From Coriobacteriaceae bacterium (GTDB lineage Bacteria; Actinomycetota; Coriobacteriia; Coriobacteriales; Coriobacteriaceae): a stretch of DNA of 28,679 nucleotides. The stretch covers positions 1 through 28,679 of the forward strand of contig CABJFQ010000019.1 of NCBI GenBank assembly GCA_902364975.1. The letters run 5' to 3'. Made by a program: the position numbers and the translations under genes. The notes below the pieces were generated by a model. It was not told the origin of the DNA. It saw only the letters and a list, made by a program, of their open reading frames with translations, and did not search any database. Below, piece after piece: positions 3,317 through 23,846 of the stretch (the stretch's first letter is position 1; each line of letters starts with the position of its first letter).

Positions 3317-3364
3317 GGCTCGACGCTGCGCGGGCCGCATTTGGACAATCTGACGTTCAACTTC

Positions 3365-3394
3365 AAGGGCGCGACCAGAAGGTCAGCGCCCTTT
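3365..3394 (+). terminator. Terminator of lysS transcript
   Basis: An outer 8-bp stem, AAGGGCGC (3365-3372) with GCGCCCTT (3386-3393), and an inner GACC/GGTC stem separated by a one-base bulge, close on an AGAA loop and run into CTTTCGTTT. The T-tract is interrupted, so strength is uncertain. Confidence 0.7.
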
Positions 3395-5242: not shown

Positions 5243-5274
5243 TTGGTGCAAATGAAACTGATCCGCAAAACATG

Positions 5275-5367
5275 AACGTGGATAATCTCCCGTTTTTGGC
5301 CTGTTTACGGGCTCAAAACGGGAGATTATCCACGCTCGTGGAATGGGTGTCCGAAAATCCACGCTCG
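5275..5367. repeat. GAGCGTGGAT repeat family, locus 1
   Basis: A perfect 20-bp inverted repeat (5277-5296 with 5315-5334, 18-nt loop) reads CGTGGATAATCTCCCG in the left arm and CGGGAGATTATCCACG in the right. A further shorter unit, ATCCACGCTCG, follows at 5357-5367. Related units occur at 19652-19717 and 23737-23846. No T-run follows, so it is not a plain terminator. It sits between the ThrE-type gene and clpC. Confidence 0.85.
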
Positions 5368-5478
5368 TTGGGCCGATGCAGACGCACCTGGCAATTCCTT
5401 TTTTGTAGACGTTGCCGTATGGCTGCATGCGGGAAAGGTCCCAACGGTTAACATATACTCCATATGGGTAAAGAGACC

Positions 5479-5504
5479 AAAGCGCTGCCGCGGGGCGGCG
5501 CTTT
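5479..5504 (+). promoter_or_regulatory. Leader hairpin of clpC
   Basis: An 11-bp stem (5479-5489 with 5494-5504, one G-T wobble, 4-nt GCGG loop) lies 38 nt before the clpC start codon, followed by GCGTTTGAAAAAAC. A possible -10 TATACT lies just upstream at 5454-5459, without a clear -35. The hairpin could attenuate transcription or stabilise the mRNA; the weak T-run argues against a strong terminator. Confidence 0.5.
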
Positions 5505-5541
5505 GCGTTTGAAAAAACTAGCTCGTCTAAGAGGAACTAGC

Positions 5542-8184
5542 ATGTTAGACCGTTTTACCGATCGCGCGCGCAAGGTCATGTCCATGGCCAAGCAAGAGGC
5601 GCTCGATCTTCATTCAAATAAGGTGGGTACCGAGCACCTGCTGCTCGCGCTTGCCAAGGAGGACGAGGGCATTGCCGCCGAGGCACTGCGTTCGCTCGAC
5701 ATCTCCTACGATGACATCATGGATACTCTCAAAGAGGTCCAGACCACGGTTCCCGAGCCCAGTGAGGAGACCGAGGCGGCCAAGCTCGCCTTTACGCCGC
5801 TCGTCATTAGCGTGATGGAGCGTTCATTCCGCGTGGCGCGTGAGAACAACCAGACCTACGTGTCGACCGAGCACTTGCTGATCGGCATCGTCGAAGAGGG
5901 CAACGGCATGGCCATGGACATCCTCATGCGCTTGGGTGTGTCGTCCGCCTCCATCAAAAAGGCTATCGAGAAACTCACCGCCAAGGACCAGGACAAGAAG
6001 CGTCCGCTCGCCGGCGCCGGTGCTGGTCGTCCCGGTGCGGGCCTGCCGTTCTTTAGCGGCTCGGATGCCTCTCAGCAAAAGGGGAGTGGCACCGATACGC
6101 TTAAGCAGTTCGCGACCAACCTCACGCAGAAGGCGCGCGACGGCGAGCTCGACCCTGTAATTGGTCGCGAAAAGGAAGTCCAGCGTATGATGGAAATTCT
6201 TTCGCGCCGCACCAAGAACAACCCACTTATCCTGGGCGACCCCGGCGTGGGCAAGACGGCCATCGTCGAGGGCCTGGCACGGCAGATCGCTGCCGGCAAT
6301 GTGCCCGAGAACCTTATGAACCAGAACATCTGGACGCTTGACCTGCCGGGTCTTGTCGCGGGCGCCAAGTATCGCGGTGAGTTTGAGGAGCGCCTCAAGA
6401 ACGTGATCCAGGAGGCGACCGAGGCCGACGACGTCATTCTGTTTATCGACGAGATGCACACCATCATCGGTGCCGGTTCTGCCGAGGGATCCATCGATGC
6501 AAGCTCCATGCTCAAGCCCGTGCTCGCGCGTGGTGCCTTCCAGATTATCGGCGCCACCACGGCCGAGGAATTCCGCAAGTACCTCACCAAGGACCCAGCC
6601 TTCGAGCGTCGCTTCCAGACCATCGATGTCGAGGAGCCGAGCGTCGAGGACACGGTCAAGATCCTGACTGCGCTCAAGCCGCGCTACGAGGAGCACCACC
6701 ACGTGCGTTACACGCAGGGTGCCATCGAGGCCGCTGCGAACCTCTCCAACCGCTACATTCAGGATCGCTTCCTGCCCGATAAGGCCATCGACCTCATTGA
6801 CGAGGCCGGTGCCCGTGCTCGCATCGCCGCGAATCGCGCACCCGAGCCGGTGCGCGAGGCCGAGCATCGCATCGAGGAACTCAAGGCTGCCGCACAGGAG
6901 GCTACCGAGAGCGACGACATGAACAAGGCCGCCGAGATCACCGAGCAGCAGAAGGCCGCCGAGATTGAACTCGCCGAAGCCAAGGCCGCCTGGACCGCCG
7001 AGCTCGACGCCAGCCCGCTCACCATCGACGTGAGTCAGATTGCCGACATCGTGTCCGTGACCTCGGGCGTGCCGGTTTCCTCGCTCACCGAGAGCGAGAG
7101 CCGTCGCCTGCTGCAGACCGAAAGCGTGCTCAAGACCCGCATTATCGGCCAGGACGAGGCTGTCGAGGCCGTCGCCAAGGCCGTGCGCCGCAGCCGCTCG
7201 CCGCTCAAGGACCCGCGTCGCCCCGGCGGCAGCTTTATCTTCCTGGGTCCCACCGGCACAGGCAAGACCGAGCTCGCCAAGACGCTCGCTGAGTACCTCT
7301 TTGGCAGCAAGGACGCGCTCATCAGCTTCGACATGTCGGAGTTCGGCAGCGAGTTCGAGGTCTCCAAGCTTATCGGTAGCCCTCCGGGTTACGTGGGTCA
7401 CGACGAGGGCGGTCAGCTTACCAAGGCCGTTCGTCGTCACCCGTATTCGGTCGTGCTGTTCGACGAGATCGAGAAGGCGCACCCCGACATCTTCAACATC
7501 CTGCTGCAGGTGCTGGAGGAGGGCCGCCTGACTGATAGCCAGGGCAAGACGGTCGACTTCCGCAATACCGTGATCATCATGACGTCCAACGTGGGCGCCC
7601 GCGAGATTGCGCAGGATGCGAGCGTGGGCTTTGGCACCACCGGCGAGCAGGGTCTCACGTCGAGTGAGATCCGCGGCCGCGCGATGGGCGAGCTCAAGCG
7701 CCTGTTCCGCCCCGAGCTGCTCAACCGCATCGACGACATCGTGGTGTTCCAGAAGCTCTCGGGCGAGAACCTGACCAAGATCGCTCACCTGCTGGTGGAC
7801 GATCTGCGCCAGCGCCTGATTGCCAACGGCATGAACATCAAGCTCACCGATGCGGCCTATGACAAGATCGTGGCCGAGGGCACCGACCTCACCAACGGTG
7901 CGCGTCCGCTGCGCCGTGCTATTCAAAAGCTCATCGAGGACCCGCTGTCCGAGGAGCTTCTGGCCGGCGAGTGGGGTGAGGGCGATACCGTCCTGTGCGA
8001 CGTGGCCGATGGCAAGTTTGTCTTTAGCCATGGCACGGGCGAGATCCCGGCACCGCGTCCGGCGGGCACGCTCGGTGGCGATACCGCCCCGGCGGCACCG
8101 CACACCGGCAACGCCGCGCCCGTGAGCGGCGGCGTGACCTCGGGCCCCGGCGGTATGATGCAAGCCGGCTCTGGTGCGCTGTAG
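5542..8184 (+). CDS. clpC: ATP-dependent Clp protease ATP-binding subunit ClpC
   Basis: An 880-residue HSP100 unfoldase that feeds proteins to ClpP. The N-domain has two Clp_N repeats (from residue 1; [10 protein letters not shown] and [10 protein letters not shown] mark them). Walker A of AAA-1 is GDPGVGKT at about residue 232; AAA-2 has GPTGTGKT at about 569 and [10 protein letters not shown] as Walker B. Between them lies a short M-domain with a UVR-like coiled segment, which marks ClpC rather than ClpA or ClpB. The tail is rich in Gly, Ala and Pro. The start at 5542 has AAGAGGA upstream and gives the canonical [12 protein letters not shown] beginning; the frame is open upstream but that part runs through the leader hairpin. 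No ctsR, mcsA or mcsB lies next to it, unlike in Bacillus, so its heat-shock control must differ. Confidence 0.97.
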
Positions 8185-8207
8185 GGATTAAACATACCTT
8201 GTATAAC

Positions 8208-8240
8208 GGGGGCGTTTCCGATAAGGAAGCGCCCCCATTT
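8208..8240 (+). terminator. Terminator after clpC
   Basis: A 12-bp stem (8208-8219 with 8225-8236, one wobble, 5-nt loop) is followed by ATTTCTATT. Confidence 0.8.
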
Positions 8241-8266
8241 CTATTGAAATGCGCTTCAATCTGCCG

Positions 8267-8296
8267 TGCTATACTAAAATCGAGATATAGTATAGC
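8267..8296 (+). promoter_or_regulatory. Extended -10 promoter with palindromic operator of the toxin-antitoxin pair
   Basis: TGCTATACT (8267-8275) is an extended -10 element; a TTGAAA at 8244-8249 is too far upstream for a standard -35. A 9-bp perfect inverted repeat, GCTATACTA (8268-8276) with TAGTATAGC (8288-8296), covers the -10 and the start region. This is the usual layout for autorepression by an antitoxin of the ribbon-helix-helix class. Confidence 0.7.
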
Positions 8297-8308
8297 AAAG
8301 GAGCCGAT

Positions 8309-8668
8309 ATGCCTACGTCAATACTCGACACGCGGCCAGTTCAGATGAACGTGCGTATAGATCGCCAGCTCAAAGAGGCGGGAGACGCCGTCCTGACTCA
8401 TATTGGCATGACGCCGTCACAAGCCGTTCGGACACTTTGGGAGTATCTGGTCGTTAACGGACGCATGCCCTCGAAGGGAGACGCGGCGGCTCCGGTTTCT
8501 GACGGAGTGGAGCCCCAGCGCATGGAGTCAAGGGCCGCGCAAGGCAGCCATATCGTTCGCGATTCGTGCCTCAAATACGGCATCCCCATCCCTGAGTTCT
8601 CGGGAGACTATGACGACCTCTATGAGGAGGCCATGGCGGAGCGCTATCCCGAATGGGTGGAACTATGA
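8309..8668 (+). CDS. RelB/DinJ-family antitoxin
   Basis: A 119-residue protein. Residues about 12-50 (VQMNVRIDRQLKEAGDAVL, HIGMTPSQAVRTLWEYLVVNG) fit the ribbon-helix-helix DNA-binding fold of RelB/DinJ antitoxins. The C-terminal part, acidic and probably disordered until bound, would wrap the toxin. AAAGGAG lies 5 nt before the ATG. The stop codon overlaps the start of the PIN gene in ATGA, so the two are translationally coupled. The palindrome at 8268-8296 is the likely binding site for its own repression. It is longer than E. coli DinJ (86 residues). Confidence 0.82.
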   Translation: MPTSILDTRPVQMNVRIDRQLKEAGDAVLTHIGMTPSQAVRTLWEYLVVNGRMPSKGDAAAPVSDGVEPQRMESRAAQGSHIVRDSCLKYGIPIPEFSGDYDDLYEEAMAERYPEWVEL

Positions 8669-9177
8669 GCACAGAAGGCGTCCTCAAGCTGTTAATCGAT
8701 ACCAACGTATGGATGGATTATTTTTCTGGCAGGTCCGACCGTACGGCAAATGTCGTCCATCTGATCGAGATTGCCGACGCCTCGGAGCGGATTGCCCTGT
8801 TTGCCTCGTCGCTTTCGGTCAAAGACGTTTCATATCTTGTCTCGGCGGCAATCAAGCAGGAGTGCCGAAGAAAGACTGGCTCACTGAGCGATAACGCCAT
8901 TGCGGCGGCAGGCGAAACGGCTTGGGCATGCGTTCGACAGATGCGCGAGCTAGCCCTCATCGCCCCGGTCGGTGCAGACGAGGTCTTCGACTCCTTTGTG
9001 TTCAAGTACCACCACAATGACTTTGAGGACGACCTGATGCTGGGCGTCGCCAATCGCATTGATGCCGATTACGTCGTGACGGGGGATAAAGACCTTATCA
9101 AACATACCAATGGCGTATGCATTGACGTTTACCAAGCTCTGAAATTGGTCGGAGAGGGCAAAGGATCCTCGGCATGA
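8665..9177 (+). CDS. PIN-domain protein, likely VapC-like ribonuclease toxin
   Basis: A 170-residue PIN-domain protein. The first conserved acid is in LLIDTNVWMDYF near residue 15, and the C-terminal acidic cluster is in NDFEDDLMLGVANRIDADYVVTGDKDLIKH (given here in two overlapping parts of the fold). Family members are Mg2+-dependent RNases that cleave tRNA or rRNA when freed from the antitoxin. I choose the ATG at 8665 because it overlaps the antitoxin stop codon as ATGA and follows GGGTGGAA; an in-frame ATG four codons upstream is possible. A RelB/DinJ antitoxin would normally be paired with a RelE/YafQ toxin, so the partnership is unusual. RNA target unknown. Confidence 0.82.
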   Translation: MSTEGVLKLLIDTNVWMDYFSGRSDRTANVVHLIEIADASERIALFASSLSVKDVSYLVSAAIKQECRRKTGSLSDNAIAAAGETAWACVRQMRELALIAPVGADEVFDSFVFKYHHNDFEDDLMLGVANRIDADYVVTGDKDLIKHTNGVCIDVYQALKLVGEGKGSSA

Positions 9178-9190
9178 TACATCTGACCTG

Positions 9191-9254
9191 CTTTATCTTG
9201 ATAAAGTGGCGTTTCCCCGCCGTTAGCCGATGATGCAAGGGCGCTCGGCGTTTT
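9191..9254 (+). terminator. Possible terminator after the toxin-antitoxin pair
   Basis: Two elements: a perfect 7-bp palindrome with a 2-nt loop (9191-9206, CTTTATC/GATAAAG), then a weak hairpin (CGCCG at 9218-9222 with CGGCG at 9246-9250) followed by TTTT. The second could terminate the toxin transcript. The first looks more like a protein-binding site. Confidence 0.4.
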
Positions 9255-9334
9255 CGACTGGTTTATGCACGCAAAGTCTGGGAATATACAAGTCGCATGT
9301 CTTACTGTCTAACCAGTTGCGCCAAGGAGGCACC

Positions 9335-10792
9335 ATGGATTACAAGATCACCGGCTACGAGCCCGCCCAACTGTTCCATTTCTTTGAGGAGGTCAGCGCG
9401 ATCCCCCGTGGGTCTGGCAACGAGAAGGGCATCAGCGATTTCCTGGTTGCGTTTGCTAAGGAGCGCGGCCTCGATGTGTACCAGGACGAGGTCTACAACG
9501 TCATCATTCGCAAGCCCGCTTCTGCCGGCGCCGAGAATGCTCCGACCGTGATGCTGCAGGGCCACATCGATATGGTGTGCGACAAGTTGGGCTCTGTTGA
9601 GCACGACTTTACGACCGACGGTATCGACCTGGTCGTCAAGGACGGCGTCCTCACCGCTAACGGCACCACTCTGGGCGCCGACAACGGTATCGCCGTCGCG
9701 CTTATGCTCACTGTTCTCGATGACGATTCGATCGTTCACCCCGCCCTCGAGTGCGTATTCACCACCGACGAGGAGACTGGCCTGGTCGGCGCCGAGACGC
9801 TCGACAAGTCCCAGATTAGCGCCCGCACCATGATTAACCTTGACTCCGAGGAAGAGGGCGTTGCCACCGTCAGCTGCGCCGGCGGCGTCGTCGTTACCTA
9901 CACCTGCCCCATCGCGCGCGAGCACAAGACCGGTAGCACCCTCACGCTCGACATCTCCGGCCTGCTGGGCGGCCACTCCGGCAGCGATATCCACCTGGAG
10001 CGCGGCAACGGCAACCTCATCATGGCCCGCATCATCGACCGCCTGATGGTTGCCGGCGAGCCCGCCATCGTGAGCTTTAACGGCGGCACCAAGGACAACG
10101 CCATCAACCGTGAGTGCAAGGCTGTTCTGGTCTATGCCGACCACGCTGCCGCCGAGGCCGCGGCCCAGATCGCAAAGGACATCATCGCCGACGTCACTGC
10201 CGAGCTCGAGGTCTTCGACCCCGGCTTTACCTGCACCGTCGAGATTGCCGACGACGCCGAGGTCGAGGCCATGGACCAGAAGTCCGCGCTTGCCCTCATC
10301 CGCGCCCTGCGTCTTGCCCCTAACGGCGTGATTCGCCGCAACGTCGCCACCGACGGCTCCGTCGAGGTTTCCTCCAACATCGGTGTGGTTGCCACCTCTG
10401 ACGACGAGGTTAAGATCATGCTTTCCCCGCGCTCCTCGATCACCTCGCTGCAGAACGAGTTCAAGGATCGTTTGCAGACGCTTGCCGATGTCCTGGGCTT
10501 CGACGCCAAGTTTGAGTTCGAGTATCCCGGCTGGAGCTATGCCGAGCATTCGCCGGTCCGCGACGTCTTTGTCGAGAGCTATCGCGAGCTCTTTGGCTCC
10601 GAGCTGCGCATCGAGTCCATTCACGCCGGCCTTGAGTGCGGCCTGTTTGCCGAGGCCCTGCACGGCCTGGATGCCATCGCCGTGGGCCCGACGCTCTCCG
10701 ATGTCCACACCCCGGACGAGAGCATGGAGCTCGCTTCTGCCGAGCGCTTCTACGAGCTGCTCATCGACGTGCTCAAGCGCCTCGCCGCGTAA
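9335..10792 (+). CDS. pepD: Aminoacyl-histidine dipeptidase PepD (M20 family)
   Basis: A 485-residue cytosolic metallopeptidase of family M20C that cleaves dipeptides such as Xaa-His; it helps recover amino acids from peptides. Metal-binding elements appear in order: QGHIDMVCD near residue 77, GTTLGADNGIAVAL (bridging Asp) near residue 110, FTTDEETGLVGAE (catalytic and metal-binding Glu), NLDSEEEG, and LSDVHTPDE (final His) near the C-terminus. The dimerisation domain lies in between. The ATG at 9335 has a textbook AAGGAGG; longer in-frame starts upstream lack one. It is monocistronic, ended by a strong terminator, and shows the same GC-rich codon use as the housekeeping genes, unlike the hipBA pair next to it. 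Confidence 0.95.
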   Translation: MDYKITGYEPAQLFHFFEEVSAIPRGSGNEKGISDFLVAFAKERGLDVYQDEVYNVIIRKPASAGAENAPTVMLQGHIDMVCDKLGSVEHDFTTDGIDLVVKDGVLTANGTTLGADNGIAVALMLTVLDDDSIVHPALECVFTTDEETGLVGAETLDKSQISARTMINLDSEEEGVATVSCAGGVVVTYTCPIAREHKTGSTLTLDISGLLGGHSGSDIHLERGNGNLIMARIIDRLMVAGEPAIVSFNGGTKDNAINRECKAVLVYADHAAAEAAAQIAKDIIADVTAELEVFDPGFTCTVEIADDAEVEAMDQKSALALIRALRLAPNGVIRRNVATDGSVEVSSNIGVVATSDDEVKIMLSPRSSITSLQNEFKDRLQTLADVLGFDAKFEFEYPGWSYAEHSPVRDVFVESYRELFGSELRIESIHAGLECGLFAEALHGLDAIAVGPTLSDVHTPDESMELASAERFYELLIDVLKRLAA

Positions 10793-10847
10793 AGGTTGCG
10801 CTAGCAGCAGTCCGAGCCACGTGCTAGCGGATTGCAAATGACATTAC

Positions 10848-10895
10848 GAGAGGGGGTACCCGGTCTTTTGCGACAGGTGTCCCCTCTCTTCTTTT
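10848..10895 (+). terminator. Terminator of pepD
   Basis: GAGAGGGG (10848-10855) pairs with CCCCTCTC (10881-10888), extended inward by wobble pairs, and runs into TTCTTTT. It lies between the convergent pepD and hipA. The T-tract favours the + strand. A perfect 8-bp inverted repeat (10799-10806 with 10822-10829) lies just before it. Confidence 0.8.
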
Positions 10896-10919
10896 AAGAA
10901 ATGGGAAATTGATTGGCGT

Positions 10920-12224
10920 CTAGCCCATATCCGCCCTGATGAGGTCGAGGGTTCGCTGGCAGTTTTCGCGGACGGGGCCGAGCATATGATCGCGCAGGTC
11001 CGCCATGCCGGGCAGGTCGGCGTATTCGTCCATGACCTCTTCCATGCAAATGGGTACCTCGTAGGCGAGGTCCATCATGGTCGCAAAGCAAAACTTCTCG
11101 GATAGCCCGGCATCGGTGAGCGCCGTCTCCAGCGCGGGGTCGCCCATACCGTGGTATCGGCGGATAGCACCTGGACCGATGCGCCCCACACGATTTTCGC
11201 CGCCAACGCTCATAGCAAGGCGTGCCCGACGTCGCATGCTCTCATACGCCAAGCCCGATGCGACATCGTACATGGGTGCGAGTGCCGCGTTTGTGCCTTT
11301 GCCTAGGATGAGCGAGTAGTTTTTAGCGTGTGCGTCAGGCGCTCCGATAATGGCGTTATAGAACAACATATAGGTAAAAAGCACAAGATTCATGTGGTGG
11401 GGGACTGTGTTAATCAGTCGTTCTTGGATGTCTCGTGTAGTCGGTCCTCCGTCGGCGGTGTATTTCTGGCTTGGCAATACACCGAGCGCCTGGCAAAAGT
11501 CCTCCTGATGCAGCCTTTCGATACTTCCGCTGTTATTGACCATTCTGTCGTACCGTTCAATGACGAGTGCGGCTTCGTCTTCAAATGTGCAATAGGAGAC
11601 GTTGGCAGTTGGAATGCCAACACGCTGAGCCGTTTTCATGCAGACGAATTCGTTTAAGGCCTGATGTTTGAACCCAACGACACCATTTTTGAAGATATGG
11701 GTAGTGGGGGACGACCCTAGACATTCGCACCATTGGCCGTCATGCCAGGCTAGTGCAAATTTGCCTTGGTTGCCGCCCAGGGACCAGCTTTCGTTGGAGC
11801 CCATCCATGTTTCACTTTCGTCATCGCGAATTGCTTTGAGTCTGCGAGCAATTTGAGAATTGGTAAGCGGGCGGTATGTCGAGATTCTGCTGTAGGCAGC
11901 ATCTAATTGATCGATTTGACAAAACTGAACGGCGCCCGCGCAGTCAAGACCGATATGACGCAAGAGGGCGACAGGGTTATTGGAAGCAACGTCATACTCG
12001 GCGGCAATAGCGCGCCGCTGCTCTTGACTGTCAGGCAAAAGGCCAAATAAGAACGGGCGGACGATGCTATGACTATACGTGCGATTGGAAAGCGGCATTG
12101 TAAGCGATAGCGGTGCCCCGCAATAGGTTGGAGCGTACGCAAAGCTGCAGAGTCCTTGCTTGTCTTGTCGGAGTGTGCCGGCGATTTCGCCACAAATGAG
12201 GGTCGTAAGTTCCATCACTGCCAT
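10920..12224 (-). CDS. hipA: HipA-family serine/threonine kinase toxin
   Basis: A 434-residue kinase of the HipA family. In E. coli, HipA phosphorylates glutamyl-tRNA synthetase, halts translation and promotes persistence. Recognisable parts: an N-terminal HipA subdomain; the loop SLGGNQGKFAL with S148 at the place of the E. coli autophosphorylation site S150; lysine K179 in THIFK; the catalytic IGAPDAHAKNYSLI with D297; and MYDVAS with D320 as the metal-binding Asp. All key residues are present, so it is probably active. Its ATG abuts the hipB stop codon (TAAATG), giving translational coupling; a second Met three codons in is an alternative start. Base composition is more AT-rich than its neighbours, suggesting transfer. 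The target protein is unknown. Confidence 0.92.
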   Translation of the reverse strand: MAVMELTTLICGEIAGTLRQDKQGLCSFAYAPTYCGAPLSLTMPLSNRTYSHSIVRPFLFGLLPDSQEQRRAIAAEYDVASNNPVALLRHIGLDCAGAVQFCQIDQLDAAYSRISTYRPLTNSQIARRLKAIRDDESETWMGSNESWSLGGNQGKFALAWHDGQWCECLGSSPTTHIFKNGVVGFKHQALNEFVCMKTAQRVGIPTANVSYCTFEDEAALVIERYDRMVNNSGSIERLHQEDFCQALGVLPSQKYTADGGPTTRDIQERLINTVPHHMNLVLFTYMLFYNAIIGAPDAHAKNYSLILGKGTNAALAPMYDVASGLAYESMRRRARLAMSVGGENRVGRIGPGAIRRYHGMGDPALETALTDAGLSEKFCFATMMDLAYEVPICMEEVMDEYADLPGMADLRDHMLGPVRENCQRTLDLIRADMG

Positions 12225-12656
12225 TTATTTCACAACCTTACACCCAAAGGAGAGATTCGAAGTGCTGGAAAGGCCTTGCTCGGCTGCGATTTGGGCCAGC
12301 AAGGCACCGTAGGAGGATGGCGTTCCTTGTCGAGGAGGCCGTCTGCCTACGTTTGGCTTTGGCAGGGTATTTGAGCTTGCGATAGGGAGGTCTGCTGCCG
12401 TCGTTGGTTGTTCGGTGTGTGATGCGATGGAGTCGTTATTGATTTGCACAAAGAGACCTATGCCGAGTGCGTTAAAGACGGTCAGCAACTTGTCGAGTCG
12501 AATGCCGGTGGCGTCTCCTAGCTCGAGCGATGCGAGCAGACGCTCCGAAACACCGGCCTTTTTGGCGAGGGCGGCACGGGTGAGACCCTGAGCCTCGCGT
12601 GCCTGGCGCACGTAGATGCCAGCTTGGCGGGGTGTGGTGATGGGGAAGGTATCCAC
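12225..12656 (-). CDS. hipB: HipB-type antitoxin with Xre-family helix-turn-helix
   Basis: A 143-residue antitoxin and repressor. The helix-turn-helix is in AGIYVRQAREAQGLTRAALAKKAGVSERLLASLELG; the rest of the domain continues through LDKLLTVFNALGIGLFVQI. A C-terminal tail of about 75 residues, rich in Pro, Ser and Thr, is longer than in E. coli HipB (88 residues). I choose the GTG at 12656 because GGAG sits 6 nt upstream. Two in-frame ATGs, at 12686 and 12713, lack ribosome binding sites and lie inside the operator boxes, which would then encode MQTFA and MQKSA. With the GTG start, the operators fall in the promoter as expected. hipA follows without a gap. Confidence 0.82.
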   Translation of the reverse strand: MDTFPITTPRQAGIYVRQAREAQGLTRAALAKKAGVSERLLASLELGDATGIRLDKLLTVFNALGIGLFVQINNDSIASHTEQPTTAADLPIASSNTLPKPNVGRRPPRQGTPSSYGALLAQIAAEQGLSSTSNLSFGCKVVK

Positions 12657-12671
12657 GGCGATCTCCGAACG

Positions 12672-12739
12672 TGCAGACTTTTGCATATCAGTATGACATG
12701 CAAAAGTCTGCATGAAAAGGACTCATGCAAAACTCTGCA
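12672..12739 (-). promoter_or_regulatory. hipBA promoter with three TGCA-box operators
   Basis: Three copies of a 15-nt box occur: 12672-12686 and 12698-12712 as a perfect inverted pair 11 nt apart, and 12725-12739 as a direct copy of the second with one mismatch, 27 nt further. Read on the + strand the box is ATGCAAAAGTCTGCA, itself flanked by TGCA at both ends. On the - strand a plausible extended -10, TGTCATACT, with TTTTCA 17 nt upstream lies among the boxes. HipB very likely represses here. Confidence 0.75.
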
Positions 12740-12784
12740 TGAGGCCTTGTGCTGGCGTTGAGTTTTGAGCGATTGTGTTTGGCA

Positions 12785-13363: not shown

Positions 13364-13584
13364 AGTCTGGCTCCCTCTCTGCGGGCGAACCCGATTACAC
13401 GACTACTCCCTCATTTATATGAGACCCGATGCTACCACATGAGCAGTCAAAAGAGCCCCGTCCCAAATGAGCTGCCTAAGCGGTGTTCGCTCATTCTGTA
13501 AGCATCGGATTTCGCGAGCGCCGCGGGGACAAACCGTGAGAAACTATTTAGCGTTTATGGAGCGTATGCGATGGGAGCGATGCC

Positions 13585-15864: not shown

Positions 15865-15867
15865 CGA

Positions 15868-17334: not shown

Positions 17335-17356
17335 TCCCTGCGGGTTTTCCAAGCAC

Positions 17357-17459
17357 CCGACCGCCCGAGCCACGGCACCTTGCCTTTCAATCGTCGGGCA
17401 TGACCTCAAGGTCTATGCCCTTCTCTTTCAAGGCAATCTGCCGCACCTCGGGCGGTCGG
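17357..17459 (+). ncRNA. 103-nt rod-shaped hairpin between cysS and rlmB
   Basis: The two halves are imperfect inverted repeats of about 50 nt. Outer stem: 17357-17369 with 17447-17459, 13 bp, perfect. Then CGGCA/TGCCG, TTGCCTT/AAGGCAA and GGGCAT/ATGCCC with GACC/GGTC, separated by small internal loops, closing on TCAA. It starts 22 nt after the cysS stop and ends 42 nt before rlmB. It could be a processing site, an mRNA-stabilising element or a degenerate palindromic repeat. T-rich sequence follows but not a clean T-run. Whether it is a functional RNA is unknown. Confidence 0.5.
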
Positions 17460-17501
17460 TCTATTTGTTTCGTTTGATAGTTGTATTTAGGAGGTCGCTT
17501 T

Positions 17502-18422
17502 ATGGCCGACAATCGCAAGTGTGCGCCTCGTGGTGGCAAACAGGCTGCTTCTGGCTCGCGCCCGATTCGCCGCAATGACCGCGCTGCCGCTTCCAAGGAC
17601 CAGCGCGAGCGCTCCCAAGCCCAGGCTGCGCGTTCGCAGCGAGATCGCAACCGCGACAACATTCAGGTCCCCAAGGGCGAGTTTATCGAAGGTCGTCGTG
17701 CTGCCGCCGAGGCGCTGCGCACTGGTTTTCCCATCAAGTGCGCGCTCATCGCCGAGGGCGGGGAGCGCGATGCCGCCTTGTCGCGCCTGGTCGATGACCT
17801 CAACGCCGCGGGTGCCCGCATTAAGTATGTGCCGCGCGCGCAGCTCGATGCGCTGTCGAGCCATGGCGCTCACCAGGGCATTGCGCTCGAGGTGGGCAAC
17901 TTCCCTTACGCCGATGTCGCCGACATCCTCGACCGCGCAGGCGAGGGCCCGGCGCTTGTCGTGGTGCTCGACCATGTGACCGACGACGGTAACTTTGGCG
18001 CCATCGTGCGCTCTGCCGAGGTTGTGGGCGCAGCGGGCGTCATCATCGCCAACAAGCGTGCCGCCGGCGTGACCGTGGGCAGCTACAAGACCTCCGCCGG
18101 CGCCGTCATGCATCTGCCTATCGCGCAGGTGCCCAATATCGCCCGTGCGCTCGATGTCCTCAAGGCCGCCGGCTTTTGGGTGGGTGGCGCTTCCGAGCAT
18201 GCCGAGGGCAGCTGCTGGGATGCTCCCTTCGAGGGCCGCGTGGCGCTCGTCATGGGCTCCGAGGGCGACGGCATCTCGCGTCTGGTGCTCGAGAAATGTG
18301 ACTTTTTGACCAAGCTTCCCCAGCGCGGCATGACCGAGAGTCTCAACGTGGCCCAGGCGACCACCGCGCTGTGCTTTGAGTGGCTGCGCCGCAATGCCGG
18401 CGAGCTCATGGGGGAGGAGTAG
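17502..18422 (+). CDS. rlmB: 23S rRNA 2'-O-methyltransferase RlmB (TrmH/SpoU family)
   Basis: A 306-residue SPOUT methyltransferase; family members methylate the ribose of a guanosine in 23S rRNA (Gm2251 in E. coli) using AdoMet. A basic N-terminal extension of about 55 residues precedes the L30e-like substrate-binding part, starting near FIEGRRAAAEALR. The catalytic knotted domain has motif 1 DDGNFGAIVRSAE, motif 2 VALVMGSEGDGIS and motif 3 ESLNVAQATTALCF. The ATG at 17502 follows TAGGAGGT. The next gene starts 3 nt after the stop. Position between cysS and yacP supports RlmB over other TrmH paralogues. Confidence 0.92.
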   Translation: MADNRKCAPRGGKQAASGSRPIRRNDRAAASKDQRERSQAQAARSQRDRNRDNIQVPKGEFIEGRRAAAEALRTGFPIKCALIAEGGERDAALSRLVDDLNAAGARIKYVPRAQLDALSSHGAHQGIALEVGNFPYADVADILDRAGEGPALVVVLDHVTDDGNFGAIVRSAEVVGAAGVIIANKRAAGVTVGSYKTSAGAVMHLPIAQVPNIARALDVLKAAGFWVGGASEHAEGSCWDAPFEGRVALVMGSEGDGISRLVLEKCDFLTKLPQRGMTESLNVAQATTALCFEWLRRNAGELMGEE

Positions 18423-18425
18423 CGC

Positions 18426-19103
18426 ATGTCCAAGAAGAACCGCGCCAAGTCCAAGGCCAAGCGCTTTGGCGAAGGCTCGGCCAAGCCGATTGTTTCGGCC
18501 GCGACCTATGGCGTGGGCGGCAATGCGTTTGCGCAGGCCATCGCCGACCCGGTCTCGACGGTGCACTCCAATAAGCCCGAGCTGCTGGTGGTCGACGGCT
18601 ACAACGTGATCCACTGCACGCCGCGCTACGAAAAGCTCGTCTACGACCATTCCGATGATCCGTATTCCAGCGACGTTCACGATATGGCGCGCACGGCACT
18701 CATCAACGATGTTGCCGCGTTTGCCCAGGGCCGCTACGAGGCCGTAATCGTGTTTGACGGCGCGGGCAATATCTCCAGCGAGCGCCCCAACCTGCCCGCC
18801 CGCGGCGTGCGCATCGAGTTTTCGCCGACGGGCGTGTCGGCCGACACCGTGGTGCAGAAGCTCTGCATCGAGGCGCGCGAGGAAGGCCGCGCGTGCTCCG
18901 TGGTGTCGAGCGACGGCACGATCCAGGCCGTCGTCATGGGTAAGGGCGTTACGCGCATCTCGAGCCGCATGCTGGTGGACGAGATCAAACAGATCGACAA
19001 CGACGTGCACGAGGCCGAGGAAGCCCCGCAGATCAAGATGACCCTGGGCAGCCGCCTGAGCCCCGATGCCCTGGCCAAGCTCAAGGCCCTTCGCGGGAGG
19101 TAG
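18426..19103 (+). CDS. NYN-domain protein, YacP/Rae1-like ribonuclease
   Basis: A 225-residue protein with a basic N-terminal extension of about 50 residues, then an NYN (PIN-like) nuclease domain. LLVVDGYNVIHC gives the first acid (D57) and N60; VIVFDGAG and SSDGTIQAVVMGKG supply further conserved acids. Bacillus subtilis YacP (Rae1) is an endonuclease that enters the ribosome A site and cuts mRNA during translation; that role is inferred by homology and by the same place in the gene order (after rlmB). The ribosome binding site GGGGAGGAG overlaps the end of rlmB. It is the last gene of the disA operon; no clear terminator follows. Confidence 0.85.
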   Translation: MSKKNRAKSKAKRFGEGSAKPIVSAATYGVGGNAFAQAIADPVSTVHSNKPELLVVDGYNVIHCTPRYEKLVYDHSDDPYSSDVHDMARTALINDVAAFAQGRYEAVIVFDGAGNISSERPNLPARGVRIEFSPTGVSADTVVQKLCIEAREEGRACSVVSSDGTIQAVVMGKGVTRISSRMLVDEIKQIDNDVHEAEEAPQIKMTLGSRLSPDALAKLKALRGR

Positions 19104-19151
19104 GGGATTATCCATAGAGACCCGTTTCCCAATTGGCCGGTCCGTTGCCGT

Positions 19152-19213
19152 CGCCAAAACGAATAGTTTTTGGTTTTGGCGAACAGATAAAATTATTCGT
19201 TCTGGCGAATAGT
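19152..19213. repeat. Operator-like inverted repeats before tRNA-Thr
   Basis: Arms 19152-19166 (CGCCAAAACGAATAG) and 19193-19207 (TTATTCGTTCTGGCG) are inverted copies with two differences. A second pairing, CGCCAAAAC (19152-19160) with GTTTTGGCG (19173-19181), is perfect. TATTCG-N6-CGAATA at about 19195-19212 is itself a palindrome. The pattern looks like a multi-site repressor operator, but no protein gene follows. Confidence 0.6.
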
Positions 19214-19241
19214 TTTGAGATGTGGTCGGTCGAAGGGTCTG

Positions 19242-19270
19242 TTGCGCCTCGTCCGCAATTCCTTTATTCT
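19242..19270 (+). promoter_or_regulatory. Promoter of tRNA-Thr (TGT)
   Basis: TTGCGC (19242-19247) and TATTCT (19265-19270) with a 17-bp spacer, 30 bp before the mature tRNA. Confidence 0.5.
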
Positions 19271-19300
19271 TAACTGGCTTCGCGCGAAAGCGCCAAGTGT

Positions 19301-19375
19301 GCCAGTGTGGCGCAACGGTAGCGCAACTGATTTGTAATCAGTGGGTTGCGGGTTCGATTCCTGTCACTGGCTCCA
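19301..19375 (+). tRNA. tRNA-Thr (anticodon TGT)
   Basis: The acceptor stem is 19301-19307 with 19365-19371. The anticodon loop TTTGTAA gives TGT, reading ACA. The T-loop is TTCGATT, discriminator T372 by local count (19372), and CCA is encoded at 19373-19375. A terminator follows. It marks the end of the housekeeping block and the start of the repeat-rich zone. Confidence 0.95.
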
Positions 19376-19384
19376 TGAGAGTTT

Positions 19385-19419
19385 CGGGCTCTGTCTCTAT
19401 ATGGGACAGAGCCCGTTTC
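19385..19419 (+). terminator. Terminator of tRNA-Thr
   Basis: An 11-bp perfect stem, CGGGCTCTGTC (19385-19395) with GACAGAGCCCG (19405-19415), is followed by TTTCTATTT. Confidence 0.85.
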
Positions 19420-19490
19420 TATTTAGGTGGTGCGCCATCGGGTTAGCGCCCATCCCGTTTTTGGTTTGTCTCGTCTTCCAGTTTGTCTAA

Positions 19491-19615
19491 ATCTGTAACA
19501 CCAAGACCGATATTCGGCATCTAACTGTTACAGATTGAGATGAAACTTAGGGTGTTTTAGGAATATCTTGATCTGTAACATGTAGAAGCGGAATAGGCCT
19601 CTTGCTGTTACAGAT
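19491..19615. repeat. Two tandem ATCTGTAACA palindromes
   Basis: ATCTGTAACA occurs at 19491-19500 and 19571-19580. Its complement TGTTACAGAT occurs at 19526-19535 and 19606-19615. Each pair is separated by exactly 25 nt and the two units are 80 nt apart. The loops are diverged but similar in layout. Flanks also tend to agree (TTGTCT before, GAGA after). The region holds no gene. Confidence 0.8.
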
Positions 19616-19651
19616 CGAGACAAGGGCGGGCGCGGATCTGGATGTCCTGCT

Positions 19652-19717
19652 CGAGCGTGGATTTCTGGATACGCGAGCGAAGAAAATCTCCCGACCGGAG
19701 AACGAGCGTGGATAATT
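19652..19717. repeat. GAGCGTGGAT repeat family, locus 2
   Basis: CGAGCGTGGAT occurs at 19652-19662 and again at 19703-19713. The stretch 19687-19716 matches 23737-23766 at 27 of 30 bases in the same orientation. It contains a small TCTCC/GGAGA stem. It lies 200 bp from the end of the PTS gene. Confidence 0.8.
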
Positions 19718-19772
19718 AACTTGGATAGGGAGCTAAGGTAAACACCGATTGTCTATCGGCGGCTTTAGAAAC

Positions 19773-19807
19773 AACGACCCCGATTTCATTGTGGAATCGG
19801 GGTCGTT
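19773..19807 (-). terminator. Terminator of the PTS operon (likely)
   Basis: A 13-bp perfect stem (19773-19785 with 19795-19807, 9-nt loop). On the - strand it is followed by GTTTCTAAA. It lies 100 bp past the stop of the PTS permease and no gene on the + strand needs it, so I assign it to the - strand operon. The sequence could work on either strand. Confidence 0.6.
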
Positions 19808-19908
19808 TGTGCCTCAGGAATCCGAATGGATTAATCGAGCTCCTAAGGAACTTCTTGGGTTCTTGCTAATGGTCTGCCGAGGATGTCCCCAATGCAAACA
19901 GCGGGCAT

Positions 19909-21309
19909 CTACTCAATATAGCTGGGGTTCTTCTTGATGATCACGCGTGCAGCGATGAAGGAGACGACGATGGCGATGATGGCGACAACGCATGCCAGCA
20001 CGAAGTTACCCATGGACCCATCGGGAGCGATAAAGATGAGTGCCGAAAGAAGGCCGGGGCATGCTCCCGCAACATACTCTTTCAGAACAAAGATGCCTGC
20101 AGGGAGTCCAGCGCAGAGCGCGCCGATTGCCGTGCCGACAAGCAGGCGGGGACGCTCGATGAGGCAACCGTAGAACGCGGGCTCGGTTACGCCACAGAGT
20201 GCGGTGACGGCAACCGTGGTGACCATACCCCTCTTCTCTTTGTTTCCCTTCATGGCAGTTGCCAGGGCGAGGCTCGTGCCGCCAATGCAGAGGTTCGAGA
20301 TGAATCCAAAGATAATGGGTGCCCAACCGAGCTGCGCCAGGCTCGTAACTTCGATTGCGATGTAAGCCTTATCGAGACCGAGCATGACGAAATAGGGGTT
20401 AAGGGCTGCCAGGATCGGAGTAGCGATAAATGCCACGTTGTCCATAAGCCACGTGACGGCATCGCTCAGCGCGTAGCCCATCATGCTGCCGGCGGGGCCA
20501 AGGATAATAAGCTCGACGGGCACGACGATGATCATGGTGAGCAGCGGCTTCAAGAACAGTTTGGTAACGTCGGGAATGATCTTCTGAAGGCCGCGGTCGA
20601 CAAAGTACATGAATACAACGCCCAGTACGATGGGCACTACCGTACTCGAATAGTCGTTCGTCGGGATGGGAATACCAAGAAAGTCGAGACCCTCGGCACC
20701 GCTAATGGACGAGCTGATCATGATCGCGCCCAGCAATGCGCCCATGATGGGCTGCATCTTCATGACGGCCGCGAGCTGATAACCAAGATAAACGGGTAAG
20801 AAGCTAAACGAAGCGCTAAAGATCGCCAACAGGACCTGGGCGGTTCCGCTATCGGTGCTCAATCCGCAATAATTGACCAGGAGATTCTTGATCGAAAGAA
20901 TGAGTCCGCCAACGATGAGCGCCGGGACGATGGGCATGAATACCTGTGCAGAGACGTTCCCGAATTTCTCAATCAAGCCCATGGCGGTGTTACCGCTTTT
21001 AATGCCTTCTGCAAGGTCTTTGGCGGTTTGGGCATCGTCGGCAACCGTGCCACCGCCGACTTCGATTCCCGCGAAGTCGAGGAAGTCGTTGTAAGCCTCG
21101 GTGACGTTGGGGCCGATGATCACCTGAAGCTGGCCACCGCTGACTACTGCCCCGAGCGCCTGATCGGCCGATTTGGCGAGCTGGAGATCGATGATCGAGG
21201 TGTCTCGTGCGTCGATGCGAAGACGCGTCGCACAATGAGTTACCGATGTAATGTTCTCTTTGCCGCCAACAGCCTTTAGGACTGTTTCGGACATTGCCTG
21301 ATATTTCAT
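19909..21309 (-). CDS. PTS beta-glucoside-family EIIBC permease, no EIIA domain
   Basis: A 466-residue sugar transporter that imports and phosphorylates its substrate. The N-terminal EIIB domain has the phospho-accepting C26 in THCATRLRI. An EIIC membrane domain with about ten hydrophobic segments follows, starting near residue 115. GLDKAYIAIEVTSLAQLGW and VTALCGVTEPAFYG, the latter with the conserved GxTEP glutamate, belong to the glucose-glucoside EIIC family. The C-terminal EIIA domain found in full-length BglF (about 625 residues) is missing, so an EIIA from elsewhere must donate the phosphate. The ATG at 21309 has AGGAG 8 nt upstream, overlapping the stop of the glycosidase gene. Substrate is not certain; see the glycosidase. 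Confidence 0.92.
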   Translation of the reverse strand: MKYQAMSETVLKAVGGKENITSVTHCATRLRIDARDTSIIDLQLAKSADQALGAVVSGGQLQVIIGPNVTEAYNDFLDFAGIEVGGGTVADDAQTAKDLAEGIKSGNTAMGLIEKFGNVSAQVFMPIVPALIVGGLILSIKNLLVNYCGLSTDSGTAQVLLAIFSASFSFLPVYLGYQLAAVMKMQPIMGALLGAIMISSSISGAEGLDFLGIPIPTNDYSSTVVPIVLGVVFMYFVDRGLQKIIPDVTKLFLKPLLTMIIVVPVELIILGPAGSMMGYALSDAVTWLMDNVAFIATPILAALNPYFVMLGLDKAYIAIEVTSLAQLGWAPIIFGFISNLCIGGTSLALATAMKGNKEKRGMVTTVAVTALCGVTEPAFYGCLIERPRLLVGTAIGALCAGLPAGIFVLKEYVAGACPGLLSALIFIAPDGSMGNFVLACVVAIIAIVVSFIAARVIIKKNPSYIE

Positions 21310-21318
21310 CTCTTTCTC

Positions 21319-22737
21319 CTAACCTTCCTGCTCCTGATACTTCGAGATAAGGTCTCGGTACCAATACCAGCTCTTTTTGGGGGTGCGCTCCAGATTGTTC
21401 TCGAAGTCGATATGGACAAGTCCGTATCGTTTTTCGTAGCCGTTGATCCAGCTATACAGATCCATCGTCGACCAGAGGTAGTAGCCCTCAACGCGCGCGC
21501 CGTCGCGCTTAGCCCTCATCATGTGCTCGATGAACTGGCCCAGAAGCTCGATGCGGTCATCATCGTGGATCATTCCGTCTGCGTCTGGTTGCTCATAGGC
21601 GCCATGTCCGTTTTCCGTAATAAAGATGCGGGGCGCGTCATAGCGCTCGTGGACATCCATGATGGTTGAATACATGCAACCTGGGAGTATTTCGCGGCCC
21701 CATTTATTGCGGGGAACATTGCTGTCGCGGGCGCTTTCAAACAAGGGCGCAATGCATTTTCCTTCGACCTTTTTGCTCGAACCGCCCTTATTGTTCGCCG
21801 AAACGGCAAGCTCTCCACCGTGCCAGTCGGTTACATACTCTCGGCAATACACGTTGAGTCCAATAAAATCGACTTTACCGTCTCTGAATTCTTCTACGTC
21901 ATTTGGGGATCGATAGAGCGAGACGCCAAGTTTTTCAAGGATTTCGTCCATTTCTGGCGGCAGTTGACCCTGAAGCGCTGGTGCCAGAATCATGCGATTG
22001 GCGAAAAAGTCTGCGTATCGAAATACGTCATCAGGGTGCTCGGTTGCCGGGTCGAGTTCGACAACGCCGCCATCGTGGACGGCGCCGATGATGCCGTCGT
22101 AGCCCATTTGACGATATGTTCGGACTGCGAGTGCGCTCGCGCGCATCAGGTTGTACTGAAACTGCATGTACGACTGAACGTCGAGCGATCGATTGGGGGG
22201 ATAGTTGCCCAACATGTTTACGCAGTAGCTGTAGAAATGCGGCTCGTTAACGGTAGCCCAGATTTTGACGCGGTCTCCAAAGCGCTCAAAGCAAATCTTG
22301 GCGTATTTGCAGAACCACTCTGCCATGTCGTTGTTCAGCCATCCGCCTTTGCAAGCAAGCGTGAATGGTAGATCGTAATGGAACAGCGTAACGTTGGGCT
22401 CTATGCCATTTTCGAGGCAACAATCAATGACCCGATTATAAAAATCGATACCCTCTTCATTCACTTCGCCGATACCCGTGGGGATGATTCGACTCCATGA
22501 AAGAGAGAAGCGATAAGTGTTTTGTCCGCCTTCTTTCATCATGCGGATATCTTCTTCATAGCGATGGTAGAAGTCGCAAGATACATCACCGTCAACATGG
22601 TTGATGTTCTTATTGCTTGTGTGGCTAAAGAAATCCCACTCGCCAAGGCCTTTGCCGTCTTCGTTCCAGGCACCCTCGCACTGATAAGACGCCGTGGCGG
22701 AACCCCAGAGAAACGGCATGTTGTTCACGTTGTCCAT
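21319..22737 (-). CDS. GH1 6-phospho-beta-glycosidase (possibly 6-phospho-beta-galactosidase)
   Basis: A 472-residue glycoside hydrolase of family 1, retaining mechanism. The acid/base E165 is in WATVNEPHF, the nucleophile E375 in FITENGHGA. The phosphate-binding signature S429, K436 and Y438 lies in YSWINGYEKRYG, so the substrate is phosphorylated sugar from the PTS. W430 after the serine matches W429 of Lactococcus LacG, a residue linked to galactosides; 6-phospho-beta-glucosidases usually have Ala or Met there. So a phospho-galactoside or dual specificity is plausible. I choose the ATG at 22737 because AAAGGGG is well spaced; an ATG 18 bases upstream is weaker. It is first in the operon, before the permease, and divergent from the RpiR gene. 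Confidence 0.9.
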   Translation of the reverse strand: MDNVNNMPFLWGSATASYQCEGAWNEDGKGLGEWDFFSHTSNKNINHVDGDVSCDFYHRYEEDIRMMKEGGQNTYRFSLSWSRIIPTGIGEVNEEGIDFYNRVIDCCLENGIEPNVTLFHYDLPFTLACKGGWLNNDMAEWFCKYAKICFERFGDRVKIWATVNEPHFYSYCVNMLGNYPPNRSLDVQSYMQFQYNLMRASALAVRTYRQMGYDGIIGAVHDGGVVELDPATEHPDDVFRYADFFANRMILAPALQGQLPPEMDEILEKLGVSLYRSPNDVEEFRDGKVDFIGLNVYCREYVTDWHGGELAVSANNKGGSSKKVEGKCIAPLFESARDSNVPRNKWGREILPGCMYSTIMDVHERYDAPRIFITENGHGAYEQPDADGMIHDDDRIELLGQFIEHMMRAKRDGARVEGYYLWSTMDLYSWINGYEKRYGLVHIDFENNLERTPKKSWYWYRDLISKYQEQEG

Positions 22738-22792
22738 GAATCCCCTTTCCATCATTCAACACGGTGGATACGTGTGGCGGAATTACGATTAA

Positions 22793-22846
22793 GATGACGT
22801 CAACTGATTTGAATCATAGGAGAACGACCAAAGCTGTTTGATTCAA
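22793..22846. promoter_or_regulatory. Divergent control region with inverted repeat
   Basis: TTGAATCA (22809-22816) and TGATTCAA (22839-22846) are a perfect 8-bp inverted repeat with 22 bp between. A TGACGTCA palindrome lies at 22793-22800. The region separates the glycosidase operon (-) from the RpiR regulator (+). It is the natural place for the regulator to bind. No -35/-10 pair is clear. Confidence 0.5.
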
Positions 22847-22888
22847 TAAATGAACCATGATTTCGAGGAGAGCGGAAAGAGGGATCAC

Positions 22889-23722
22889 GTGAATATCAAT
22901 GACTTCGATGTGCTCAATCGCATTAGCTCAATCATCAACAGCGAGTTTGGGTCAAACGATGCCGCCATCGCTCGATATCTCATCGCTCACATTAGGCGTT
23001 CGAGCGAAATCAATGTTGCCGCAATAACCCGCGATGCATTCGTGACCCGTTCCGCTGTTCGTCGTTTCTGCAATCGATTGGGCTACCAGTCTCTTAGCGA
23101 TTTGAAAGAATCATTTACTCAATCAGTCTTTCCAAGCGACTTAAGCCATCGAGAGGAGGAATTTGGCTACGAGGAGTACAGGGCAGAGCTCGACGTTCGC
23201 ATGATCGAGATGTTCGCTGAGGTTGAAAGCGGCGTGTCCGATATCGCTATTAAGCACCTTGCCGACGAAATTGATGGCCATAAAAACGTTGAAATCTGGT
23301 GCACCAATAATGTGAGCGCCAATCTCGTACGATTTCAGCAGGAAATGTTTTATGCGGGCAAGATAGTTCGCATAGTTGCTGGGGCTAACGTCGCGGAATT
23401 GAAAAACATGGGAGACGTTTCGCAGTCATTGATAATTCTCGTATCGGTCTCCGGGCTATTTGCGTCACAGGCACGTGAGTATCTTGATTGCCGTTCGGGC
23501 AGGAAGATTCTAATTACTGCGTTTAGCAACGATGACAAATCGAGGTCTTTTGACCGTGTATATCGTCTTGGTAATGCGGGAAACGGAATTGACCGACTCG
23601 GCGTTTATTCGAAATATGCCATGACTTATTTCTTCGACTTGCTATCGTCGTGTTACTTGAGTCGCTACCCCTGCACCAAGGGGGAGCCGCTCTATGGGTC
23701 TACTTTGGCCTGGCCCGAGTAG
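22889..23722 (+). CDS. RpiR-family transcriptional regulator
   Basis: A 277-residue regulator with an N-terminal RpiR helix-turn-helix (about residues 1-80; AAITRDAFVTRSAVRRFCNRL) and a C-terminal SIS-type sugar-phosphate domain. The SIS part looks degenerate: where a glycine/serine-rich phosphate loop is expected it reads IWCTNNVSANLVRFQQEMFYAGK, although LVSVSGLFASQ resembles the second serine-rich loop. It likely controls the divergent PTS operon in response to a phosphorylated sugar. I choose GTG 22889, which follows AAGAGGG; the ATG at 22850 lies 3 nt from the operator arm and has no ribosome binding site. The gene is relatively AT-rich, unlike the housekeeping operons. Confidence 0.85.
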   Translation: MNINDFDVLNRISSIINSEFGSNDAAIARYLIAHIRRSSEINVAAITRDAFVTRSAVRRFCNRLGYQSLSDLKESFTQSVFPSDLSHREEEFGYEEYRAELDVRMIEMFAEVESGVSDIAIKHLADEIDGHKNVEIWCTNNVSANLVRFQQEMFYAGKIVRIVAGANVAELKNMGDVSQSLIILVSVSGLFASQAREYLDCRSGRKILITAFSNDDKSRSFDRVYRLGNAGNGIDRLGVYSKYAMTYFFDLLSSCYLSRYPCTKGEPLYGSTLAWPE

Positions 23723-23736
23723 TTCGGCTCTATAGT

Positions 23737-23846
23737 TCTCCCGCCTGGAGAATGAGCGTGGATAATCTTCCACTTTGGGCCCAGTGGCACGCCAAAAGTG
23801 GGAGATTGTCCACGCTCGATTTCAAACGGGAGAATATCCACGCTCG
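23737..23846. repeat. GAGCGTGGAT repeat family, locus 3
   Basis: A 23-bp inverted repeat, 23754-23776 with 23795-23817, differs at two places; both are G-T wobbles if read as + strand RNA. A third unit, AAACGGGAGAATATCCACGC, follows at 23824-23843 and resembles the right arm of locus 1. The upstream part, 23737-23766, matches locus 2. It begins 15 bases after the regulator gene. Confidence 0.85.

Follow-up and report, generated by a model that had tools for sequence, protein, structure and literature searches.

The window analysed here, a 28,679-nucleotide stretch of a Coriobacteriaceae genome (contig CABJFQ010000019.1), carries at three intergenic sites copies of a short repeat whose full form is a predicted 64-nt hairpin, and the same hairpin recurs in related genomes of the genus Collinsella. 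We tentatively take these hairpins for a REPIN-like family that likely serves as a two-way 3' terminator or insulator and whose copies likely offer homology for swaps of gene cassettes, and we give this reading a probability of about 0.42. According to it, intergenic copies would form RNA hairpins ending or insulating the transcription of neighbours on either strand, and the repeated hairpin DNA would give the homology for gain, loss and movement of whole cassettes. The first spread of the family is assumed to have been a mobilisation in trans, like that of REPINs or of miniature inverted-repeat transposable elements (MITEs).

The hairpin, its pairing and its range

The 10-nt box GAGCGTGGAT occurred six times exactly in the window against 0.16 expected (none of 100 shuffles reached six), and two copies with one mismatch, at 5274 and 23808, brought the total to eight. 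These fall at 5274–5366, 19653–19713 and 23754–23845 (loci 1, 2 and 3), all outside genes scored by codon use, which agrees with the original prediction of eight intergenic copies at three sites and none in genes. A further one-mismatch match, GAGCGTCGAT at 1354, is within a gene and ordinary; when up to two mismatches were allowed, the 10-mer was not enriched in the window (39 matches versus 34.9 expected). The long stems proposed for loci 1 and 3 were recovered as well. At locus 1, 5274–5296 pairs with 5315–5337 in a 20 bp perfect stem, the third pair being an A–C mismatch (−47 kcal/mol, z −10.9 on the + strand), and at locus 3, 23754–23776 pairs with 23795–23817 over 23 bp including two T–G pairs (−45.3 kcal/mol, z −8.7, likewise on the + strand). 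Folding was computed for six copies, on both strands. Locus 2 has no long stem and gave no match to the covariance model described below up to E 10.

Across the family, two 23-nt arms enclose 18 nt made up of a mismatch, an inner stem of six pairs and a 4-nt loop, so that the whole stem is about 29 bp, and a GTGGAT box is constant. Length is 64 nt in 134 of 143 copies distinct by their 100-nt flanks, 63 nt in five and 70 nt in four. Many copies, in relatives too, have an extra box 28–29 nt outside one or both arms. Type II variants, with GAGAGTGGATATTTGGACGG arms, have different inner-arm letters with the same 64 nt and GTGGAT box and were kept in the family; examples, in the L-numbered stretches compared, are L083 12523–12586, L101 12727–12790 and L111 2519–2582. 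The copy between EIIA-type and Fic genes (L094 7077–7146 and its orthologues) has a 6-nt extension, to 70 nt, in several genomes.

Pairing was assessed in an alignment (A2) of 33 hand-picked copies from 62 distinct 68-mers, all of the 64-nt type and each turned to its better-pairing strand, a choice that favours the structure. Paired letters filled 91.0% of cells, versus 85.4% after shuffling and at most 49.5% when the arms were slid; 12 of 29 pairs had changed on both sides (6.7 shuffled, at most nine slid), and the covariation score was 0.214 versus 0.111 shuffled. The outer stem was 94.3% paired, with eight pairs changed on both sides; arm pair 4, for example, occurs as C–G, A–T and G–C. 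Compensation was also seen within single loci, from A–T to G–C in L276 (a locus with 15 distinct copies) and from A–T to C–G between L119 and L226 or L236 (five distinct copies). The original prediction of a selected hairpin, to be sought in relatives and with a covariance model, was supported: further copies lie elsewhere in the genome and in relatives (21 of 43 genomes of the genus), their length is close to constant at 64 nt, they covary (the 12 of 29 pairs above) and they compensate at two orthologous loci.

The same letters bear on whether the repeat is instead bound by DnaA or by some other protein that recognises DNA. Within the hairpin the box varies least, and GTGGATAA resembles part of a DnaA box. 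The letters around the box, however, vary with their partners (GAGCG, GAGAG and GAGGG on one side; AAT, TTT and ATT on the other), and because they vary together, pairing fits better than one fixed protein site. Nothing seen supported the DnaA option raised originally (oriC lies outside what was examined), and we regard a protein site as extremely improbable.

A covariance model built from 33 copies matched 21 of 43 genomes of the genus at E 0.001, giving 10–38 matches per genome over both strands, and did not match any of the other 22; the scan used stricter filters and scored at most 119 candidates per genome, so weak matches may be lost. A reversed-pattern control found nothing in any of the 43. 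The exact two-arm pattern occurred in 14 of 58 genomes, all of this one genus out of 20, and a pattern scan of GTDB contigs returned 75 stretches, all from Collinsella and largely from the same genomes as the genus set. Several pattern matches that looked coding (such as L003, L004, L006, L009 and L010) were removed by eye. None of the collections scanned yielded the family outside Collinsella: two 12-mer matches in other genera (G030 and G032; G numbers denote genomes) are single boxes without hairpins, five viral contigs with an 18-mer of one arm have no hairpin, on which a phage origin was rejected, and the nine stretches L126–L134 have none either. The closest genome compared, G001, has 39% of sampled 31-mers in common with the window. 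The 3' end of the ThrE-type gene beside locus 1 could be located in 20 of the 21 hairpin-bearing genomes, with 92–97% identity to the window's, and in six others, with no more than 79%, so by this comparison the hairpin-bearing genomes are close kin.

Hairpins at gene ends

None of 167 copies distinct by their 200-nt flanks lies inside a gene scored by codon use, a set in which orthologues in other genomes, or copies cut differently at stretch ends, are counted again. This absence rests on a caller that learned codon usage from the window and overlooks atypical genes, Fic among them; long open reading frames (ORFs) were added later. An earlier caller, which went by ORF length, had placed several copies within long ORFs; these were judged false in G+C-rich DNA, and the caller was replaced.

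Among 41 neighbour pairs, 22 were tandem, 13 convergent and six divergent; 35 pairs have a facing stop codon, and in 15 of these the nearest one is no more than 34 nt away. Of the 22 tandem loci, 12 had their better G–U pairing on the sense strand and three on the antisense strand, and in seven the strands tied. Of 140 sides, 40 had at least five T in the eight letters after the stem, as did 22 of 672 background windows, and such tracts were more frequent at exits facing a gene 3' end (29/77) than at other sides (6/49; Fisher p 0.002). In these tests, flanks of related genomes were counted when different enough, which overstates independence. Taken together, stop-codon distance, strand bias and T-tract enrichment point to positions at transcript 3' ends, on either strand, and from this placement the hairpins likely stop or insulate the transcription of their neighbours.

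They might instead be plain intrinsic terminators that happen to be long and alike, with recombination no part of the matter. The stop-codon distances, the T-tracts and the somewhat higher number of convergent than divergent pairs would all suit this, and 230 of 250 palindromic RNA candidates of human microbiomes are predicted terminator stem-loops in PMC8040213. We nevertheless think it unlikely: a stem of this length, the near-constant 64 nt, the constant GTGGAT box and the tail boxes exceed what termination needs, and neighbour changes are in excess at hairpin ends, as set out below.

Variable gene blocks beside hairpins

Copies of the hairpin border gene blocks that differ between genomes, a feature that goes beyond the original prediction. 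At the tuf locus (locus 3 of the window), where the hairpin stands upstream of tRNA-Tyr, we compared 17 places (16 genomes and the window) and found different preceding genes: an RpiR, glycosyl hydrolase family 1 (GH1) and phosphotransferase system (PTS) block in five, a 446-amino-acid helix-turn-helix gene in six (the single copy scanned gave a sub-threshold HipA_C match), a GmrSD restriction gene in one and no scored gene in five. The place of the window's PTS EIIBC–GH1–RpiR block is accordingly held by other genes or by none in other genomes. At the ThrE–Clp locus, the hairpin is present in the window and four genomes; the five other genomes read have the ORF start of a membrane-like protein after ThrE, with Clp next in four. 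In L164 this ORF has 200 amino acids and a weak DUF2798 match below cut-off, and the other ORFs were read by eye.

Whole modules were also found between copies. Hairpins stand on either side of a Fic gene (SoFic model, 355 bits) in two different contexts, and in nine stretches, each from a different genome, a pair of hairpins encloses a 341-amino-acid gene with weak AbiEi matches (best E 2e-8; no Pfam family over cut-off). A four-gene block encoding an apiosidase, a PTS, an esterase-like and an Sde182-like protein lies between hairpins beside a 226-amino-acid gene in G001, and between a 245-amino-acid gene and a gene of 500–545 amino acids in G019 and G059, in the latter with two more ORFs and a further module. 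At that second site G001 has neither hairpin nor block. G059 carries five hairpins in about 25 kb, which separate a PTS–antiterminator pair, the apiosidase block, a longer backbone segment and the Fic gene.

To compare neighbours more widely, we took gene ends seen in at least four genomes within the stretches studied. Where some genome has a hairpin, the partner was fully conserved at 12 of 40 ends (neighbours vary at the other 28), versus 160 of 207 ends that never have one. The excess of change persisted against hairpin-free ends with a median gap of at least 150 nt (54 of 89 conserved; odds ratio 3.6, Fisher p 0.002) and for gaps of at least 250 nt (7/27 conserved with a hairpin, 21/37 without; p 0.02). 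Identical copy pairs numbered two among 36 adjacent pairs and none among 438 others, and both flank single modules in G059.

Several observations weigh against our reading. Most arm changes at the tuf locus are uncompensated (seven distinct 64-nt copies including the window's; the comparison covers only stretches chosen for their hairpin and excludes G005, G013, G046, G059 and G064). Pair 16 there is G–G in four of the seven, with nine 63-nt rows excluded, and other pairs occur as A–A, A–C, T–C and T–T. The argument made originally, that both differences at locus 3 are G–T wobbles that keep the RNA paired, is correspondingly weak: the two T–G pairs are present, but relatives mismatch at one of them. 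Since two loci compensate while changes at the tuf locus mostly do not, pairing is kept in general and not strictly at every locus. As for termination, a T-rich side is missing in 35 of 70 flank pairs (the other 35 have at least one), which counts against plain terminators too; the better-pairing strand is not the T-rich one (6/41 versus 10/41), and the window's two copies gave no match in a simple terminator scan. As for exchange, other palindromes, of the GGGGACG type, occupy many of the same gaps, and relative to GGGGACG-palindrome gaps the excess of change is weak (12/40 versus 9/16 conserved; Mann–Whitney U p 0.045, Fisher p 0.12). Neither gene ends nor flanks make independent observations, every gap was counted twice, once from either end, and the stretches were chosen for hairpins. 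Similarity between adjacent copies barely exceeds that of other pairs from the same genome (0.777 versus 0.771, p 0.09). At a convergent locus (L270–L290), insertions of about 1.5–6 kb in three genomes lie beside the hairpin site; the inserted blocks of L300 and L302 are bordered by a hairpin at one end only, and that of L301 by none. Because the palindrome-gap contrast is weak, adjacent copies are little more alike and some blocks are unflanked, we treat the link to gene exchange as an association, from which recombination between copies is likely.

A stronger version of the exchange reading would make the hairpins undescribed cassette-exchange sites of Collinsella, boundaries that end cassette transcription and at which sugar-use and phage-defence cassettes are spliced, in arrays such as that of G059; we hold this to be quite unlikely. 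A related proposal, a structured recombination site of a cassette system comparable to an integron attC and served by a putative recombinase, would account for the single copy at unfilled sites versus copy–cassette–copy at filled ones, and for the series of five copies between modules in G059. No recombinase was tied to the copies, and no search for one was made; the limited likeness of adjacent copies and the blocks with a copy on one side or none also speak against it, and we consider such a site very unlikely.

Collinsella aerofaciens is a common gut bacterium, and the sugar-use and defence genes present at hairpin sites vary among the genomes compared. If the reading of a terminator-like hairpin that also supplies homology is true, a short repeat marking block exchange would be a handle for predicting hot spots, and two questions mostly kept separate would meet, that of the RNA role of small palindromic repeats and that of whether such repeats steer genome change.

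Table 1. Features of the window at and around the three repeat loci.
Feature	Position	Strand	Remarks
Locus 1, full 64-nt hairpin (5274–5337) with 2-nt flanks	5272..5339	+	between ThrE-type gene and Clp ATPase gene; cmsearch 84.5 bits
Outer box ATCCACGCTC of locus 1 (tail unit)	5357..5366	-	direct repeat of right arm end, 29 nt away
Locus 2, two direct boxes 51 nt apart, no stem; degenerate element	19653..19713	+	left edge of PTS–GH1–RpiR block
Gene block: PTS EIIBC (-), glycosyl hydrolase family 1 (-), RpiR-type regulator (+)	19909..23722	.	between locus 2 and locus 3; Pfam
Locus 3, full 64-nt hairpin (23754–23817)	23752..23819	+	~32 nt past RpiR-type stop codon, upstream of tRNA-Tyr; cmsearch 73.9 bits
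Third box of locus 3	23836..23845	-	direct repeat of right arm end, 28 nt away
ThrE-type exporter gene	3674..5242	+	Pfam PF06738, PF12821; ends ~32 nt before locus 1 hairpin
Clp ATPase gene downstream of locus 1	5464..8184	+	Pfam Clp_N, AAA_2, ClpB_D2-small

Other repeats stand in the same neighbourhoods. At 19483–19623 of the window, after tRNA-Thr, an inverted repeat consists of two 55-nt copies with ends ATCTGTAACA and TGTTACAGAT, and similar letters occur near the tuf-locus hairpin in L001. A second intergenic family of about 240 nt (window 3290–3557 and L228 6770–7006) has a very long predicted hairpin (−143 kcal/mol for 251 nt, z −13.5) and lies directly past a stop codon in L228, with no Rfam match. 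It gave 235 BLAST pieces across the loci compared, and among the matches listed, those to its repeat part fall in hairpin-bearing genomes. At gathering score, Rfam yielded six tRNAs only in the window and nothing in L228, L220 and L224.

Mobility and relation to known systems

The hairpins could also be a REPIN- or MITE-like miniature mobile palindrome without a host function, whose copies land or persist in 3' flanks and in gaps that were variable beforehand, which would make gene-end position and cassette borders by-products. Copies are dispersed, clade-limited, intergenic and present or absent between relatives; their plan of inverted conserved ends, variable spacer and compensating changes is REPIN-like (PMC3116915), and the variable gaps hold other palindromes too.

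REPINs are tied to Y1 (RAYT) transposase genes, and such genes were found in 37 of the 43 genomes, namely all 21 that carry the hairpin and 16 of the 22 that lack it. In the 21 hairpin-bearing genomes, no hairpin model match up to E 10 lay around any of the 54 Y1 matches (1.5 kb on each side where the contig allows). A first set of 30 Y1 loci, 16 of them from hairpin-bearing genomes, had given one chance-level match (10.5 bits, E 1.4), in a hairpin-free genome. Mobilisation by RAYT was rejected on these grounds: Y1 genes are present regardless of the hairpin and no copy is within 1.5 kb of them. The search for an adjoining transposase covered the Y1 family only.

Inspection by eye of 75 flanks revealed neither a target-site duplication nor a GTAG tag at the hairpin ends, the letters before the arm being mostly AGAAT, AAAAT or AAATC; GTAG stretches near hairpins belong to separate, adjacent palindromes. 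The ThrE–Clp site is a replacement and not a clean insertion, as relatives have a gene where the hairpin sits. The suggestion of a MITE-like element spread by a transposase elsewhere thus stands in so far as copies are dispersed, have inverted arms and are present or absent between relatives, but no adjoining Y1 transposase, clean empty site or target duplication was seen. Together with the T-tracts on the side of transcription exit, this makes the purely mobile palindrome possible but doubtful in our view.

The GTAG-ended palindromes GTAGCTAATTTGGGACGGGGC and GTAGTCATTGGGGACGTTC occur in L205, L208 and many hairpin flanks. By eye, the GTAGCTAATTTGGGACGGGGC type flanks the Y1 gene on both sides at two of the five Y1 loci inspected, L205 and L208, for which reason GTAG-ended palindromes may be the true RAYT-linked repeats of Collinsella. 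A strict search for perfect GTAG-ended palindromes found them on one side of three of the 54 Y1 loci and on both sides of none.

We found no prior description of the hairpin family in the literature on Collinsella repeats, palindromes and pangenome recombination. Should the hairpins neither end transcription nor assist exchange, the family would still be a palindromic repeat without a description in the literature searched.

Known systems share parts of its design. Correia elements, a MITE of Neisseria, are likewise non-coding with inverted repeats and no transposase of their own, but they are 100–155 bp long with a TA duplication, whereas none was seen by eye here (PMC3898611). Neisserial intergenic mosaic elements, dRS3 and minimal mobile elements resemble the family as small repeats in intergenic arrays proposed to aid recombination, and minimal mobile elements also in placing different whole-gene cassettes between conserved genes; dRS3, however, is 20 bp with almost 700 copies, in contrast to a 64-nt hairpin with 10–38 matches per genome in another phylum (PMC3898611). 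The GTAG and CGTC super-families of palindromic repeats are palindromic, extragenic and often downstream of genes, and CGTC families exist without a dedicated transposase; their stems are 5–13 or 8–9 bp with a tetranucleotide tag, whereas the stem here is about 29 bp and untagged (PMC3733652). REPINs share the inverted conserved ends, variable spacer, compensating changes and extragenic dispersal (PMC3116915), and here too two conserved ends are inverted around a variable spacer in a predicted hairpin. They differ from the present family, in which no Y1 (RAYT) gene was seen beside copies, the GTAG tag is absent, a tail box stands 28–29 nt away and copy number is low. The family belongs to the extragenic palindromes, a kind already known, and has features of gene ends and cassette borders; it is closest in plan to REPINs and the tagged palindromes, with a far longer stem.

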